Assembly (NCBI RefSeq): GCF_025698545.1
Contig: NC_068569.1
Coordinates: 2,976,001-3,040,000, forward strand
Length of the DNA stretch: 64,000 bases
Source: Gossypium raimondii
Lineage: Eukaryota; Streptophyta; Magnoliopsida; Malvales; Malvaceae
Direction: 5' to 3'
The position numbers and the translations under genes were made by a program. Positions 35,301 through 64,000 of this stretch are shown here, piece after piece. The first letter of the stretch is position 1. Each line of letters begins with the position of its first letter. The notes under the pieces were generated by a model, which was not told the origin of the DNA, did no database searches, and saw only the letters and a program-made list of their open reading frames with translations.

Positions 35301-38300
35301 CAATCCCTCCCATGGCAATAAGCTCCTAATTGCAGCTTTAAACTTCCTCTCATGCTTTCTTACACTACCCCATCAGAATATCTTTTTTTCCTATAATGTC
35401 TGGATTGGGGTTTTAAGATTTGCTGTACATGAAAGAGACCCAGTCTAATAAGAATCACCATACTGGACACATATGCCACACTCAAATCTGTGTCATGTTG
35501 CTTCAACATGGATAGGCGGGTAGAAAATGCTTTGTCCAAGCAACACTGGTGTTTGAAGAAAAAAAAAGGCTAATGTCGCAATTTGGCTCCTAAACTATAT
35601 CTATTTTTTCACTTTGGTACCTAAACTTTTTTTATCCCATTTTGGTACTTGAACTATCATTTTCATTTCAGTTTACCCGAAAATATAAAACCTGCCAATA
35701 AGGTGACATGTGGCATATTATTATTGTACATAGGTAACTTTTGGTGTAAAATGGGACAAAAATGATAGTTTAGGTAACAAAGTGGCATAAAAAAAGCTTA
35801 GGTACCAAAGCAGGAAAAAGAGTATAATTAAGGGGCCCAATCGTGACTTAAGCCAAAAAAATAGCAGTTTTTGACAATAACTAAGAAAAATTATCTAAAT
35901 ATATCATATGACATAATTATTAGAAACATCTTTAAATTTCTGATTCCTTAGGAAAGCCATCAAAAACCAAAAAGAGTCTCGTACTTTAAATCTTGTGGCG
36001 ACCGAGGAAAACTTGTATGATGATCTTGAAGATTCCTCAGGTGGTGAAGGGAAAAGACCCGCAACAAATGGGCATTTAGAAGAAGCCAAGAGATTGCAAT
36101 GTTCTACCACAACATAATCCCGGTTTTTGTCTAAAAAGGAATCTGTTTGATAAGTAACCTAGAAAGAAAGGAAGATGTACACATCATCATATTATCTGCC
36201 ATATCAGAATATAGTTATATTAACTAATACACAATGTTCTATTACTTGCCTTGCCAGCATAATGTGAAACGGTAAAATCTGTTTCTGAAAATTTAGCCTT
36301 TTCCAACCTTGGGTGACCACGGAAATTCTGAAATAATTTGGTTGAAAATGTTTCATGTGTGGATCTCGGGAACATGCTGCACAAATAAGAAAATCAGGAT
36401 AAGGACTAACAGCACAGATCAAATAGTATAGAGCAACACGCACCAATTTATAATGAAGAACTTAAACTGTACCAAGCTTCATCCAAGAGAGCAATTATCC
36501 CTATCGGTTTCTGCATATGCAAGCACAATAGTTAAAAATATTTAAAAAATGTACAAATTGGGTGTTATATATTTGCTCAAGCACAAATTTACACAGTGAA
36601 AATAATAACAGTACCTACATGTGCATTGCTAATCAGTAATCACTAAATATCATACAGATGCAAATTTCAAGTGCACATCATTTAAGTTAGATTCATCCTC
36701 ACCCCCTTAAAAGAAATGCTACTTATAATAACAGCACCATAAAGGACAAAACTTAGATAATGGGATATTGCAAGGTATTCCAAATACACCATGATGATAA
36801 TGGCAGAACTTAAATAAGGCCTTATGCACTTACAGTCTCCAACATGTAGTAGTGCACACCTTAGGTATACAAGAATGTTTAAACTAAAGGAAAGAATAGT
36901 ACTTAGCTCCATATTGATTAGCTACCTGATTGTACTATTAGGAAGATAAAAATAGCCAAAGTAAAGCTCTATTGCCAACAGAAATAACAAATAGAACTAA
37001 ACAAGATAAACATTTCTTTTTAGAAGACCAAGCATGAAAACCTTCTCAATCAAATCCAAGACATCTTGGTTGTCTATAAATTCGATGTAGCTCCAATTAA
37101 TTTCTTCTTTCTTATATTCATCCTGTTCCATCTTGAATACATGCTGAAACAAATCAAGAAGGGAATATATAAGACTGGAGAGCATAGCACCATCAGAATA
37201 AATGTAGACTTCATTGCATGGAAGATTGACTTCTAACCTCGTTGAAATGCTGCTGAAGCTTTTCATTCGCAAAATTAATGCAAAATTGCTCAAAACTAGA
37301 GCATAAAAGATTACAACCAATCAATGAAAAGAAACATAAAGCTATACATTTACCTAATAATAACGATAAAAATATTAAATAAACATACAAAACCAAAGAA
37401 CAATATTTTACCTATTATGCTTAAAGCATTCAAATCCATAGATGTCCAAAACTCCAATTTGCACACAGGAATTTGGATCTTGCCCCACGGATATATTAAT
37501 CTTATCAACAAGCCTTACAAAATAGAAAGAAAATTTTCAGAACAGAAACAGTTTAATCTTGACCCCATGCTGGCAAGGCAAGTAATACAAAATATGAGCA
37601 TATGATAAAATAAATGCCTCCAAACATGAATTAACATAAGCATACCAATCAAACAATCGAGCATAAACTGTCTTTGCCAACGCATCCCGACTAGCCACAG
37701 CAGCATTACAATCAAGAGCTTTAACTATACTTCCTTCACGGGTTTGAATGGTACGAGTACATAATGTCGCCAACAAGAGGTTCACATCACACCTGCCAAA
37801 TGAGCAATTTTTTAACATGCCTAACAAGAGAATGAAAATCTACAAATTGCATAGATCAACAAGCTGCTGGCTTGAACTACCCAGCAACCTACTATGCCAT
37901 TGCCAATGTGCAAGTCACAGGGTATTTAATAAACTCAAAACATCCGTGCAAAAACTATTAGGTGTTTAAAGTAGATACTTTTACTACTGAAATTTGAACT
38001 AATTATACTACAAAAGTTGTTTCATATACTAGTGAAAATAAATCACAGCTTTGATTTTAGTCTTTTTTGTTCCAAACTATACATGCAATCCAACTTTTTT
38101 TATTGAGAAAATATTTTATTAAGCCAATTAGCACAATAGTGATAAAACATATCAACATAAACCATTGATTGCAATTAAATACTGTGCTTCCGAATCCAAA
38201 CCTCAAGTTCCATATGGTAATTTTGTCTTTAAATTGCGAAAACATCCAAGAATCCTCATAGGCTCATCCATGAATTGGAATAGTTGCTTTTATCAACACA

Positions 38301-41300
38301 TACATGACATAAGAAACAACTTTTAACACTTCTAAAAACGTTGGTTGTTACTTTATTCATATTACAGTTTCCAAACCATTACTGAAAACAAAAAGAAAGT
38401 TCTATAATTTATACTTTACTCAAGAATGACAAACAAGACAAGATTGAAAGCTATCTTCTAGGGTGACCCACCTAAAAAGATCAGCAGCCATCTGCATATG
38501 CAATGTAGATTTCTGATCTTTAACAACTGAAGAATCATGCTCTCTTCCAGGGGAAAATTCAACGTTTCCCAGATGCAAAATAGCAGCCAAGGTGCGAAAT
38601 ATAGCTTCCTGATAAAAAAAATCACAATAGCAAAAGTTAATCCAGGAAAAAATAATTCAAAAGTAAAAGATAAGTGTAATATTTTCAAACCTGTTCCTCA
38701 TGACTGATGCCAACAATATCCATTGCCCTCCTTGCCTTCATATATTCCTCTGCATTGCTTACTCCTTCAAGGTCATATGTCTTGCTTTGATTTAAATAGT
38801 GAAAGTGGCTTGGATGGCCTAATTTGTACTTTTCTGCATCCTGAACAAAAAAAGTGATAGGGATGAAAATATGCCAGTTAAGGGATTAAGTGACCTAAGC
38901 CCTTATTTTATATCCCGACATTAATGAAATAACCTTCTAAATTCTAATAATACAATTCAGCTCAACAAAAGCCGTTTTTAAAAAGTAAAAGTAGTATAAT
39001 ACTACAACAGCAGTTTTCTTATAGGCGTACATGAAGTATGTTAACAAAAACATTTGTAGGAAAAATTCAACAACATGAAGAGTAAAAAAAGGAACTACGC
39101 AATCAAACAAAACAGCATTATAACATGCGTATATGCATACTAATTAAACATAATATTAGCAATAAAAGAAAGTGCAGCAATCTCAACATTAAACAAAACA
39201 CTCTCAAGCATATATACAGCATGTACACAAACTCTAAACATGGATAAACACGATGAGATAGAAAATGAAGAAAAGAAAAAGGGAAAAAGAGACATATATG
39301 GCCAAAATAACAAGATAAAGGTAAGACAGATTACTTTCCCAGATGCACACAACTGGTAGAAGCAGTGATAATTCCTCTCAGGATCTGTTATCTGAACAAC
39401 GCGAGACCGTTCAAGAAGGTAAGTTCTGACTGCAGCACCAGATATTCTACCATTTGCATCGAATTGGATCTCAACAAACTTTCCAAAGCGACTGCCACAA
39501 ACAAATTAAGCATAAGGATTAAACAATAGTACAAGATAAATAAATTATATCCTCTGTCGCTTGTATCTTGTTAGCATACAACTGTAAACTGGAATGTAAT
39601 ATGGAAATAGCCCAAGCTTAACAGATTCTGAGTTGCAATGATATGGCTTTATGTGACACATTCAAATAAAGTCATCTTATATTCTCCCATCTTGATGCAT
39701 TTAAAACATATACTGATACAGAAGCAAAAGAACAAACTACATGGTTTCATCTATCTTGCATGATTATAGCTATAATCATGATACTTACCACACCACAGAT
39801 TGAATCAACAATACAGATCACACAAAAATTGTACTCATGAAGAACAACTATATAAGGGCAGTAGTGAAGAAAAAAATCAAAGATTAGAGAAACAACATGG
39901 ATTAGTAGGATAAGATCAGCAACAATGTAAAAGAAGCTAAACTCTTACTTCGAACTTTGTTATTAGATCTATTTGAAAAGAACTATAATCCTATACACTG
40001 CTGATGGAGTATATAAACTCAACAAGAAAGTATATGCACTAGCCAGTAGCCACATGTATTTTGTGAAACTTGTTCTAAATCTCACCTCGAATTGTCGTTT
40101 CTAACAGTCCTTGCATTTCCAAAAGCCTCCAAGAGCGGATTTGACTGAATGAAAAAGGAAATGAAATCAAGAGCAAGTTGGTAGCAAAGAGGGGTAGCGC
40201 ATTCCAAGAGTGTGTAAGAAAACATGAACTAGGCTAAACTGCATAATTAGTTTATAGGATCCTCTATTAAGCTTCCATGAAACTACAAAATAAGAAAAAT
40301 AAAGGTTTGATCCATTCTAAAAGTAATCTGCTATAAAGTTTGATCCATTCTAAAAGTAATCTGCTATCAACCTAGAGCAAAAAATGCTAGTAGCTGCCAA
40401 ACTTTCATAAGACAGCGGGCTACCTGACATGCCAGTCCACCCACTCACCCCCACCCCTCAAAGGAAAGCGAAAACAGAGAGACCACATTTAGCAGTAAGA
40501 GAAAAACCTAATAATAGCAAAATAAAAAAGTTTATATATGTAACCATGGTATTTAAGTAATAATAAAGTAAGTCAACTTATGCCATCTTACTTCCAGAAC
40601 TTGCTGCTCAACAGTTCGGTCATCACCAGCTGCACGGCCTCCAACAAAAGTAAGATATTGCATGATAAGTTTTGTTGTCTCAGTTTTACCAGCCCCACTT
40701 TCTCCACTGACTAGTATAGACTGGCTTCGACCCTCATTCATCATTGCCCTAGGTTATAAAACAAGGGGTTTAATAGATACCAGCTGAATCATGCCATAAG
40801 CAAAATTATGGATCAAGCATCCAGACAAAGATGACATACCTGTATGATACATCAGCCACAGCGAAAACATGGGGGCTTAGCTCACCAAATGGAGCACCCT
40901 TGTACTGCTCCATCATATGCACATTGTAAAGATGAGGAAGTTTTGTGAACGGATTAACGGCTATCAAAATGCTTCCTGTATACGTCTATAAAAGAGAAAC
41001 ATCTTTGTAACTGGTTTGGTAGCAGAAAATTTACCAACTAAGGATACCAAGAAAATCAGAAAATGTTATACAAATAATGCACAAGTGCATGAGCGAACAC
41101 ATCGCGTAACCAATGAGAATAAAAAATGGTTTCTTTTTAAACTAAAATATGTTAGTCATGACTTGCTAAAGACCACTGATAACAACACACAAAAGATCAG
41201 AGTCAATCACTAATAATCTCATAATGAAACTAGAAAACCAAATTGGAAAAATACAAATTTAGTCAGCAGTGTCTCATCAAATGAATGAAGCTATACAAGT

Positions 41301-52107: not shown

Positions 52108-59514
<7,407 letters not shown>

Positions 59515-60407
59515 TGGAGTTTACTGAATATTTTCAATAATTCTGAATAATTTATTATTCATATTCTGAAAATAATCATAACGTCTCTCTATTGGGCTCT
59601 CGAAGCCCAAAACATTTATTAAGAACCTACTGGGATTAAATCGGAATCCTAGGGAATTTTTCGCAAAATCCTAAATATATATATATATATATATAGATTT
59701 TAGAATTTTTTTTCCGAATTAGGTGCAGGGTTCATACGGGCGTATCACATAACAAATCTTTTCATAAGAAATTGCATAACTGAAACCTTTCCACTCTTTT
59801 ATAAGCTCAATTATACTTTCATCTAAGCACTTACCATTCCAATGCACCTTATAATTAAACATATTACCATTCAACAGTAATTTGACACTTGCCTAAACTT
59901 CAAGCAACAACATTGGTTAGCGTACTTTAATATTGACAAACTTATTTTCTCGCCATGTCTCACTTAAATTTATTACTCGTCTTAATACACATAATTTTCC
60001 TTGTATACGTATCAAAGATAGTCTCATATTTACATGTCATGATACATATCATTTTCTTGTTGTTTCTTCTTAAATATAAATTATTCAATTCAAGATGACA
60101 ATATTTCATGTACCATAATTTTTTATAAGTTCAATGTATATTTATTCCAAGAGCAGTTCATAATCTTGAATATGCATAATTATCAAGCAAGTTTCACATA
60201 CATGTATTTTCCATGTCATATTTTAGTATATCAAATAATTATCATCTCTATGTATTTCAAATTTAATTTCATGACTTTAAGTACTTATCATTTTCTATTT
60301 TTATCCCGTTGAATTTCTCGGAATTTCGATGGATTTTTAGGGGTACACTTTAGTGTACAAATTCAGGACCGTCAATTCATATTCATGTGCGCGTATTTTC
60401 CAATTCA

Positions 60408-60608
60408 GAGAGCACACTCCCACGAACCTTATTTCTTATAGCGGGATTACCAGTCCAGGCTAAATCCCCTACAAGAGAGCACACTCCCGCGAACCTCATT
60501 TCTTACAGCGGGATTACCAGTCCAGGCTAAATCCCCTACAAGAGAGCACACTCCCGCGAACCTCATTTCTTACAGCGGGATTACCAGTCCAGGCTAAATC
60601 CCCTGTAA
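60408..60608. repeat. Three tandem 67-bp units, each carrying one hairpin
   Basis: GAGAGCACACTCCC begins units at 60408, 60475 and 60542, giving an exact 67-base period. Units two and three are near-identical; the first has a few substitutions. Each contains GGGATT, the loop ACCAGTCCAGGCTA, then AATCCC. Confidence 0.95.
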
Positions 60609-60811
60609 TATAAACTCAAAGAGTATTGTCGGGATTACCAGTCCAGGCTAGATCTCCTGCAACGACAATTACTCTAATAAGATTGGATCTGAATTACCAG
60701 TCCAGGCTAAATTCAGACCTTAATTCGGATTATCCGTCCGGGCTAAATCTATTTTTCACATATTCTTCGGGAGGGCTATATCAGAATACGATCACCCGTC
60801 CGGGTTAGATC
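60443..60811. other. Array of seven hairpins with a conserved 14-base loop and changing complementary stems
   Basis: Loops of exactly 14 bases start at 60449, 60516, 60583, 60637, 60696, 60732 and 60794. The first five are ACCAGTCCAGGCTA; the sixth is ATCCGTCCGGGCTA; the seventh ACCCGTCCGGGTTA. Closing stems are GGGATT/AATCCC (copies 1-3), GGGATT/GATCTC (copy 4, with wobble pairs), TCTGAATT/AATTCAGA (copy 5), GGATT/AATCT (copy 6) and GATC/GATC (copy 7). Copy 3 extends with TTACAG/CTGTAA and copy 4 with an outer TTGTCG/CGACAA. The stems differ but stay complementary. Confidence 0.8.
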
Positions 60812-63082
60812 CTTTTTACCGTCAATTCCTTTTCAGAGATCCATCGAATTTTCCTTCCATTCAACAGAGATTTCTTCCCCTTTTTATCAAATATATAAAT
60901 GTTTCATCAATTTTCAAACAATGAACATTCAAATCATATTCACATCAATAACATACATTTCAAGCATTTAAGAATATAATTCAAGTTCGAACTTACCGGG
61001 CTAAATTACAGAAATATCAAAATTTAGGGACATTTTGGTAATTTTCCATTTTCTCAATTTCCACCCAAATCTTGATCTAAATTAATATTTCATTTAATTT
61101 ATTAATTTAAATGATAAAACAATTCATTTCATGCAATTTGGTCATTTTGACATTTTACAAAATTACCCTTAAAATTTTACTTTTATTCGATTTAGTCCCC
61201 GAACCTAAAACATGTAAATTAGATATTTTAAAATAAACTCATATTAGCTGAACATTCACGTATATTATTTTTCCTCCTCCTCCACTCCATTCCACATCCT
61301 TGATATATATATTATCACTATTTACTTGTTTACTCATAACAAGTTGTTCACTTGAGTCATAGTAACTAAATTAATTATATCTTAAGCTATAAAACTCCGA
61401 ATTGAGATCCGTAAATTTTATCTGAAACTAGAATTACATATATTATTACCATAAAATTTTAAGAATTTTTGGTCTAGCCAATAAGTATATTTTATTCTTT
61501 AAAGTCATCCTTGTTTTGTTGTCCGACAGTTTCAACCCTTCTTCACTAAAAATTAATTATCTCATTGTACAGAATTTGGATGATGGTCTCGTTTGTTCCT
61601 TTTGAAAGTAGACTTATTAAGGATTCTAATCATATAAATTATAACTCATAATCATTTTTTTACAATTTTAATGATTTTACAAAGTCAGAACAGGGGAACC
61701 CAAATTCATTCTGACATTGTCTCACAAAATTTATTATATCTCATAATTTATAATTCCATTGATTACACTGTGTCTTCTATGAGAAACTAGACTCAATAAG
61801 ATTTAATTTCATATTTTTTCATCCTCTAATTCAATTTTCATTATTTATGGTGATTTTTCAAAGTTAACTTATTGTTGCTGCCCAAAACTGTTTTAGTGCA
61901 AAATGTTGATTACTAAATTTATAACACCCTTATTCCCTTTCTCTATAGTATTTCCCATCACTTTCTCTTATTTTCTTCACTAACATATCAAGAACATAGA
62001 ACCTTATATAATAAAACCCTACATTAACATCAATTTCATACTTTTTCAATAATATCAAACTCAAAAATATATTAAAATCTTGATGTTCTTACCTTGCTCT
62101 ATTGATTTCAATCTTTAACTTGATTTTCTCTCTCCTCCAGCCTCTATTTCTTGAATCTAACTTGATATTATAGCTCCCCATAGTCTCCTTATCAATTTTC
62201 TCTCTTGGTGGCTATGGAAATTTCTTTGAATTCTAAGTGAAAATAGTGAATTTTTGGTGAGAGGACCAAATTGTAAAGAAAGCAAAACTTTCTTTCTTTC
62301 TCTCTTCTTCTCACGTTGATGCACGGAAAATTGGTGGGATGGTGGCTTCCATCTTTCTTTCCACTTATATATATATACACTAAATAAAATAATAAAATAT
62401 CATTAAGAAAAAAAATCAAATCAAAATATAATAAACTAATATTTATTTATTTATTTAATCTAAAATATCTCCAACATCATCATTATTTTCTAGATTTCTC
62501 TCTCTTCAAATTGACCATTTTGCCCTTTAGATCTTCTAAAATTCCATCCTTGAGTCATCACTTAATTTGGTAAAATTACGATTTAGTCCCTCATAATTCT
62601 TCATCTATTCAATTTGGTCCCAATTCATCCATTTTCCTTAGTTTCTAGATTATTCCACCCTTAAAATATTTACACTATTGATCCTTCAACTTTTTCATAA
62701 TTACATTTTAACCCCTCAAATTTTGAGTATTTACTATTAGGTAACAAAACTTTTCTCACTTTTTCAATTTAATCCTTTCTTGAATTAATATGTCATAATA
62801 TACTTCCCAATGTTGTCATAGCTCAAAAATCTCCTTTTTGTCACTTTATTTCCTTACTATATCAAAAATAATATCTTACTGTAAAAATTTTCGGGGTATT
62901 ACACCTACCCTCGTACACCTAGTGGGAGTTTGGGTTATATGCAAAATTTTAAACTCCCTTTTTAGGTTAAAATTCTATCTAAGTTTAGTCCAGATTTAAA
63001 ATACAAAATTCAAATCCGACTCGGCTCGTCTGAATTATATTTACTTTATATTATTTTTATATAAAAATAAAATTAAAAATAT

Positions 63083-64000
63083 AATACATCAAATACTCTA
63101 AAAACATTAAAATAAATGTTTCCCAATAAATTGAAAATATATTAAAAAAGTCTTTACACTTAAATAATATTAAAGAGATTTGCAACTTAGTAAGCAAATG
63201 TATCTAGCAAAATTAACAATAAAACAACAGTTATATAAAATCCAAACAATAACAACAAAATAATTGTGATATAATAGTGTAAATAGCAAAAAAGCAGCAA
63301 TAGAAAAAAGAAGTTTAAGTTGATTTAGGTTGGGCTCGGGCAAAAAATCAAACCGAGGCTTGACCCATTTAGAAAATGAGCCTTGTTTCAAGTGGGCCTT
63401 CGAGCCTAGGCAGGTGGCTCAACACATGATCGAGTTTAGTCACTCCTTGTCTTGTAGTGTCATGTAGTAAATCGTATGATAACTTGAATATTTATGTGGG
63501 TTGGCTAGATGTCAATGTTGTTTAGGTTAGGTGTCACCATGGCATGTACTGTGTGGTATTGCCAGTATCGTAGGTTGTCATTAGTCTGTTCTTAGGTCGA
63601 GCCACCTAACTAGGTTCGAAGGCCTGTCCTAAAAGTGGGAGGGTTTGAGCAAAAAATAGACCCAAAAAACGGGCTTGGACAAAAAATAATACCCGTTTTC
63701 TAAACTGGTCGGGCCTCGGGTGATTTTTTTTGTCTAGGGTCGTCCCGACCCGAATATGCATAAATTATTTTTATTGTTGTTGTTTTGCTGTCATTTTGCT
63801 ATTATATTACTACTATTTTGTTGTTATTTTTTGGATATTGTATAACTCTTGTTTTATTGATAATTTTGCTACTATTGTAGAGGTTTGCTTGCTAGGTTGT
63901 AACTATATTTGTATTATTTAAGTATAAAACTTTTTTCTTAATGTATTTTCAATTTGTTGAGAAACATTTGTTTTAATGTTTTTAGTGTATTTGATGTATT
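63083..64000. mobile_element. Large inverted-repeat (foldback or Mutator-like) element, cut by the right edge
   Basis: The left arm, about 63083-63422 (outer AATACATCAAATAC; inner GGGCTCGGGCAAAAAATC and GGCAGGTGGCTC), reappears inverted at about 63597-64000 (GAGCCACCTAACTAGG to TTTGATGTATT). A unique spacer of about 175 bp separates them. Open frames in both arms (63170-63391 on the minus strand and 63730-63921 on the plus strand) are the same repeat text read outward and are not genes. The right arm leaves the window. Confidence 0.75.

Follow-up and report, generated by a model that had tools for sequence, protein, structure and literature searches.

Near the right-hand end of a 64,000-nucleotide stretch of Gossypium raimondii DNA (the window), a series of short inverted repeats stands in a row, with arms that differ from one repeat to the next. 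A first-pass annotation of the sequence read these as seven hairpins whose stems covary, seemingly kept as a structure in RNA or single-stranded DNA and possibly serving a retroelement. The locus thus raises three questions: what carries the repeats, whether their pairing has been kept, and what such pairing could serve.

A hairpin array in the LTR of a Ty3/Gypsy retrotransposon

All seven hairpins were present at 60443..60811, and the stem sequences quoted for them were correct when re-checked against the window letters (Table 1). A covariance model of the motif that drew on other loci in this genome, and not on the window, found exactly seven hairpins in the window, all on the minus strand (E 8e-8 to 1.4e-4), and its next-best window match had an E value of 1.4. 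A descriptor scan of collected cotton loci, which include arrays by selection, gave 211 matches against 1 in reversed sequence, and the core pattern gave 1329 matches genome-wide against 0 for the reversed control. The hairpin motif is more than chance. Copies 1-3 repeat a 67-bp unit in tandem, with 93-96% identity to the first, so the distinct hairpins number five, not seven. Two of the window stems taken to covary, those of copies 4 and 7, partly reflect decay: copy 4 reads GATCTC where most genome copies of that slot have GGGATT/AATCCC, and copy 7 has only GATC/GATC where most have AGGATC/GATCCT.

The genome searched comprised 750.8 Mb in 281 contigs, with matches on contigs C1 to C13. The array region proved to be a dispersed repeat, with 917 first-look candidates, the best 40 of which were scored and showed 90-100% identity (the window's own place included). 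Alignment with other loci placed the array in a 3.4-kb LTR, of which the window copy ends on the right in ...GGGGTATTACA; one of the aligned copies (L048) stops short of the right end. The five complete copies all had TG..CA ends and 5-bp target site duplications (CTACC, GGCAC, ATCTA, CATGT and CCATT). The left end of the window copy is about 60 bp short of the complete copies and has no target site duplication, the edge at 59512 having been removed or rearranged by something. No second LTR copy was found within the window, hence the window copy is a solo LTR or a remnant.

Among the matches listed, at least four same-orientation pairs of motif clusters lay 7.6-8.0 kb apart on C1, and these mark fuller elements. 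Pfam searches between the clusters of one pair detected reverse transcriptase (E 8e-32), RNase H (E 1e-35), an integrase core below the Pfam cut-off (E 7.9e-6) and a weak Chromo match (E 0.0033; 17.7 bits, under its 25.1 cut-off), all on the strand reading TAGCC-GGAC. A primer-binding-site motif, TGGTATCA(G/A)AGC, was present on the same strand at three of four predicted LTR-end places, and in two of these (L101 and L103) the letters of the LTR end could be read before it. We take this motif to match initiator-Met tRNA, and tentatively name Tekay, a chromovirus lineage, from the LTR ends and primer site. The TG...CA ends with duplication, and the paired LTRs around pol pieces with a primer-binding site, are those of a Ty3/Gypsy LTR, and they bear out the retroelement origin proposed earlier. 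Since the coding pieces and the primer-binding motif lie on the TAGCC-GGAC strand, the minus strand of the window is the sense strand.

On that strand, the array lies about 2.1-2.5 kb from the LTR 5' end, with the primer-binding site about 1 kb further on. The candidate splice donor GGTAAG occurred at the matching place in all four LTR copies examined, each of which holds three or four GGTAAG overall. The TATA-like pattern was seen at its place in the window copy and was absent there in the other three. A tRNA scan of the window gave nothing helpful. Other repeats and gene pieces observed in the window are listed in Table 1.

Table 1. Positions of the LTR, its hairpins and other features in the window
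Feature	Position	Strand	Basis
LTR copy (solo or remnant), Ty3/Gypsy	59512-62903	- (sense)	alignment with six other loci, five reaching the right end
Hairpin slot A, tandem copy 1 (copy 1)	60441-60470	-	covariance model, window letters
Hairpin slot A, tandem copy 2 (copy 2)	60508-60537	-	covariance model, window letters
Hairpin slot A, tandem copy 3 (copy 3)	60575-60604	-	covariance model, window letters
Hairpin slot B (copy 4)	60629-60658	-	covariance model, slot comparison, folds
Hairpin slot C (copy 5), 8-bp stem TCTGAATT/AATTCAGA	60688-60717	-	covariance model, slot comparison
Hairpin slot D (copy 6)	60724-60753	-	covariance model, slot comparison
Hairpin slot F (copy 7), outer stem decayed in window copy	60786-60815	-	covariance model, slot comparison
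GGTAAG, candidate splice donor (GCAAG|GTAAGAAC), upstream of hairpins on sense strand	62088-62093	-	sequence pattern
TATA-like stretch, candidate promoter, upstream on sense strand	62365-62378	-	sequence pattern
Gene pieces, a few kb from the LTR	52108-55272	-	matches to FAD-binding and cytokinin-binding domains of cytokinin dehydrogenase
Large inverted repeat; possibly a foldback or MITE-like element truncated at the window end	63083-64000		arms of about 225-233 bp, 81% identity
Stretch matching its own reverse complement	35568-35854		72.5% over 295 columns
Two near-perfect tandem copies of a 33-34 base unit	40299-40367		

Slot order, fold and covariation of the hairpins

Across 40 LTR array copies, the hairpins occupied slots A1, A2, B, C, D, E and F in a fixed order, with units gained or lost, and all six slot types were present in 28 of the 40 (the window array, without slot E, is outside these 28). 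Each slot has its own self-complementary stem. Read on the plus strand, the usual stems are GGGATT/AATCCC in A and B, TCTGAATT/AATTCAGA in C, GGATT/AATCC in D, AAGATC/GATCTT in E and AGGATC/GATCCT in F. Slots A and B have about 80 bp in common at 80%, and little is common between slots C-F beyond the roughly 30-bp hairpin. In predicted folds, the slot B hairpin sits within a longer outer stem involving its spacers. Slot E, found in most other arrays, is missing from the window: the D-to-F spacing is 62 in the window and in ten other arrays without E, and about 119 where E is present. The spacing shows that a unit is missing, and the idea of a degenerate slot E in the window was dropped. In L094, slot E is duplicated as a 57-bp unit; between D and F, the window array falls short by that same length, indicating that single units are gained and lost.

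Sense-strand RNA of two arrays was folded with its flanks. Thirteen of the 15 units formed a lower stem, a UA bulge, an upper stem (GCC or GCCC with GGT or GGGT, or decayed forms) and an apex of GGAC or UGGACU; the two exceptions, which folded otherwise, were slot C of L090 and slot D of L094. What the first-pass annotation described as a fixed 14-base loop is not open on the sense strand, being made up of the UA bulge, an upper stem of 3-4 bp and the apical GGAC.

Hairpins of the same kind were found in other families. Four loci (L106-L109, 251 bases each) were read from matches with a changed lower pair 3; L106, L107 and L108 form one repeat family and L109 another. Short chance words aside, these 251-base pieces match the window LTR only around the motif. 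The first three loci have tandem hairpins and L109 has one clear hairpin, with lower stems GGTT/AACC, AAGTT/AACTT and others and upper stems GCCC/GGGT, GCTT/AAGC and GCTC/GAGC. A search with the family of L106-L108 gave 659 first-look candidates, and among the best 40, which were scored, matches besides the query had 80-85% identity. Relatives bearing other apices were read by eye, GAAT in L106, and GTGT and GTGC in L109. Three similar units follow the GGAC hairpin on the minus strand of L109:1-251 (also by eye), with an upper stem of GCTT or GCTC and an apex of GTGT or GTGC; they are possibly a relative with a changed apex. In the related LTR ends L098 and L099 (3.0 kb each), the covariance model did not find the hairpin, so not all relatives need it. 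A 70-base match (81%) was also observed between L108:158-226 and L054:6247-6316, the latter outside the LTR. Just after the primer-binding site, L101, L102 and L103 have a leader with a possible hairpin; GATTTAGCC is common to the LTR hairpins and the leader in two of the three (L101 and L102). Folds of the leader were no better than shuffles in L101 and L102 (z -0.80 and -1.08) and better in the third (-2.24).

The arms of the five slot reference stems were then compared with permuted pairings. The true pairing was the single best of 120 permutations, with summed uninterrupted Watson-Crick runs of 31 against a permutation mean of 12.2; with G.U pairs admitted, the mean was 19.0 and the true pairing was still 1 of 120. 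In 24 of the 28 arrays that carry every slot type, the permutations equal to the true pairing made up less than 0.5%, and the four exceptions (L065, L071, L072 and L093) have decayed slots.

The structure drawn from folds of the window LTR family was tested on an alignment of 19 hairpins, seven from one array of that family and 12 from the four loci of the two other families. Changes on both sides were present at 9 of 12 pairs, in 35 cells against a shuffled mean of 12.8 (0 of 500 shuffles). The covariation score was 0.348 against 0.186 in shuffles, a value that none of 500 shuffles reached, and a slid partner gave at most 0.194. Further pair types were not unusual (17, against 16.7 in shuffles). 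The first upper pair was G.U in 17 of the 19 hairpins and G-C in two, and the UA bulge was present in 19/19; however, the searches had asked for TAGC/TAGCC and GGAC, which fixes much of the bulge, the apex and the first upper pair, so the constancy of bulge and apex is overstated. Upper pair 4, which was expected to be conserved, was unpaired in 9/19, and the two outermost pairs were unpaired in 16/19.

Genome-wide, lower pair 3 was changed on both sides at 136 places against 1 in the reversed control, and 92 of the 100 listed were G-C. Upper pair 3 was changed on both sides in 67 hairpins (T-A 54, A.A 9, T.T 3 and T.C 1), none of which had lower pair 3 or 1 crossed, though the pattern allowed crossing. 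A relaxed pattern gave 1873 genome matches. In 99 readable rows of these, all from C1, lower pair 3 was A-T in 86, G-C in 11 and crossed in 2, and lower pair 1 was T-A in 74, C-G in 20 and crossed in 5; a few crossed rows also occurred among other genome-wide match lists. Upper pair 3 was C-G in 1487 matches (by subtraction), T.G in 179, C.A in 154 and T-A in 53, a modest excess of T-A over the 25.6 expected (odds ratio 2.9). These genome-wide counts are of copies, not events, and the tests ignore the tree, so that independence is overstated. Stems re-pair rather than break, as had been claimed, both between slots and between families, in the permutations, the shuffles and the genome-wide swaps alike. 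It appears that single-strand pairing was retained.

Among copies of one slot, the picture was different. Over all collected arrays, 69 of 1649 stem cells were broken, 28 kept the pair by a one-side change and none was compensated; stem sites mutated less than loop sites in five of the six slots. Uncompensated stem variation among genome copies had been named in advance as what would speak against a kept structure, and it was found within each slot, while between slots and families the stems re-pair. The within-slot variation fits neutral decay of dead insertions after integration and is not the kind that bears on the idea, which is variation among lineages still active; on such decay the genome copies of a single family alone would seem to refute the structure. 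Pairing was probably kept while the elements were active.

The window fold had a z-score of -1.90 on the sense strand (4 of 100 shuffles as good) and -2.83 on the antisense strand (0 of 100), and three other arrays gave -2.6 to -4.2 (sense) and -1.7 to -4.2 (antisense). With scores this moderate, folding does not decide between the strands. Only in the sense orientation does G.U count as a standard pair, and because the usual first upper pair is G.U, an RNA role on the transcription strand is favoured but not proved.

A candidate packaging signal and its rivals

To our knowledge, how plant Gypsy elements choose their own RNA for packaging is largely unknown. We tentatively propose, at somewhat less than an even chance, that the bulged hairpins together form a repeated RNA element to which a protein binds, with a Gag packaging signal as the likeliest identity. 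The LTR carries 5 to 8 such hairpins on its sense strand; each consists of a lower stem of 5-8 pairs, a UA bulge of two bases, an upper stem of 3-4 pairs that opens with G.U or G-C, and GGAC at the apex. We infer that, as the letters of the stems drifted, selection acting on active elements preserved the pairing along with the bulge and apex. Each hairpin would then be a docking site for a protein, with repetition raising affinity, and the most plausible protein would be the element's own Gag (nucleocapsid), which would pick genomic RNA containing the array for packaging or dimerisation. Gag is proposed because of the repeated unit, its bulge and apex, and its place between the candidate donor and the primer-binding site, by analogy with retroviruses and with BARE (PMC3735527). 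Conserved RNA structure with covariation, as looked for in a packaging signal, was found, counted over copies without regard to the tree. The distance of about 1 kb to the primer-binding site is consistent with presence in unspliced genomic RNA, and the same distance counts against packaging.

The strongest rival is template switching in DNA replication or reverse transcription, by which one arm is copied from the other and covariation appears without function; we consider this unlikely, though it deserves serious weight. According to published work, template switching is able to give rise to hairpins carrying multi-base compensatory changes and to keep them (PMC8794818). Slots C and E indeed differ from A at several pairs at once, and the lack of compensation among copies of one slot (0/1649 cells) points the same way. 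However, arm copying would be expected to remove the UA bulge together with the G.U pair, which persist in 19/19 and 17/19 hairpins (letters that the searches favoured), and the hairpin core is common to families whose spacers, in the pieces read, are unrelated. Ordinary tandem duplication, in which palindromic units are multiplied by slippage as satellite seeds with no selected structure, would account for the 67-bp duplication of slot A and for the varying number of units among copies. Plain duplication would carry the spacers too and break stems, whereas slots C to F and the families have little in common beyond the hairpin of about 30 bp, whose stems covary; a whole unit common to copies, as in a satellite seed, was found for slot A (67 bp) and not between C-F or families. 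Satellites are known to arise from tandem repeats of retrotransposon origin (PMC7004042), yet there is only a slim chance that duplication explains this array.

The repeats could also act as double-stranded DNA, as inverted repeats bound by a dimeric host transcription factor in an LTR enhancer array. Several units have inverted GATT/GATC half-sites, and the presence of several copies in one LTR is reminiscent of enhancer repeats. Against this, a constant binding protein would be expected to preserve the letters and not the pairing, and the half-sites vary between slots and families (GATT, AATT, GATC, GGTT, AAGTT) yet stay complementary; also, in the window copy the TATA-like stretch is about 1.5 kb upstream of the array. 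We regard sites in DNA as improbable. Least probable of all, in our estimate, is that the hairpins act at some other step of the sense RNA, such as splicing control, translation of a long leader, RNA export or small-RNA production: the donor-like GGTAAG upstream in 4/4 copies means that the array may be intronic, but the three or four GGTAAG in each LTR copy speak against giving this one much weight.

A broader form of the packaging-signal proposal, which we think rather unlikely, is that the hairpins, tandem and bulged with a constant UA bulge and GGAC apex, are a modular, multi-copy, coat-binding RNA cassette within the LTR, common to otherwise unrelated LTR families of one plant genome and marking RNA for packaging. 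The changed apices (GAAT in L106; GTGT and GTGC in L109) would then serve as specificity variants, allowing each family to distinguish its RNA from that of the others. If the packaging reading is true, the covarying repeated hairpin, with 1873 matches to one pattern, would be a concrete candidate cis-signal for packaging, and the packaging question would become directly testable in cotton. Tekay and CRM elements have been reported to be still transposing in tetraploid cottons (PMC12557855), and "hairpin" or "stem-loop" occurs nowhere in the main text of that paper.

Relation to known RNA and repeat elements

As the first-pass annotation had supposed, no named element of this design emerged from Rfam or from the literature covered, outside which most subscription papers lie. 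A further Rfam search gave only a chance match to mir-1285 (E 0.8; 18.1 bits against a cut-off of 56). In a bacterial genome collection, the 17-base core had 37 single matches, fewer than the approximately 240 estimated to occur by chance; a viral collection had one core match, without stems; and four motif strings searched for in papers were not found there. We know of no catalytic core like the cotton hairpin, and Rfam detected no hammerhead or other family in the window at the gathering score, so that the window lacked the signature of a retrozyme or ribozyme. The array nevertheless has a likeness to retrozymes, in which RNA structure is found in plant non-autonomous retrotransposons (PMC4918200).

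The satellite seeds of plant LTRs (PMC7004042) are, like the array, short direct repeats of variable copy number in a retroelement. In the cotton array, by contrast, conservation is largely limited to the 30-base hairpin and proceeds through complementary changes. In small RNA viruses, packaging signals take the form of scattered hairpins that have a short apex in common. Short, degenerate signals that are recognised within viral RNA have been proposed (PMC6475782). The cotton hairpins differ from the viral ones in being clustered in a Gypsy LTR.

The packaging and dimerisation stem-loops of the barley retrotransposon BARE and of retroviruses are, as here, hairpins in retroelement RNA with short exposed loops, and the retroviral loops are bound by nucleocapsid. 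Conserved dimerisation and packaging signals are described for BARE2, and separate packaged and spliced RNA pools for BARE (PMC3735527). Compared with these, the cotton unit is distinguished by its UA bulge, its GGAC apex and its 5-8-fold repetition in the LTR, at a distance of about 1 kb upstream of the primer-binding site.
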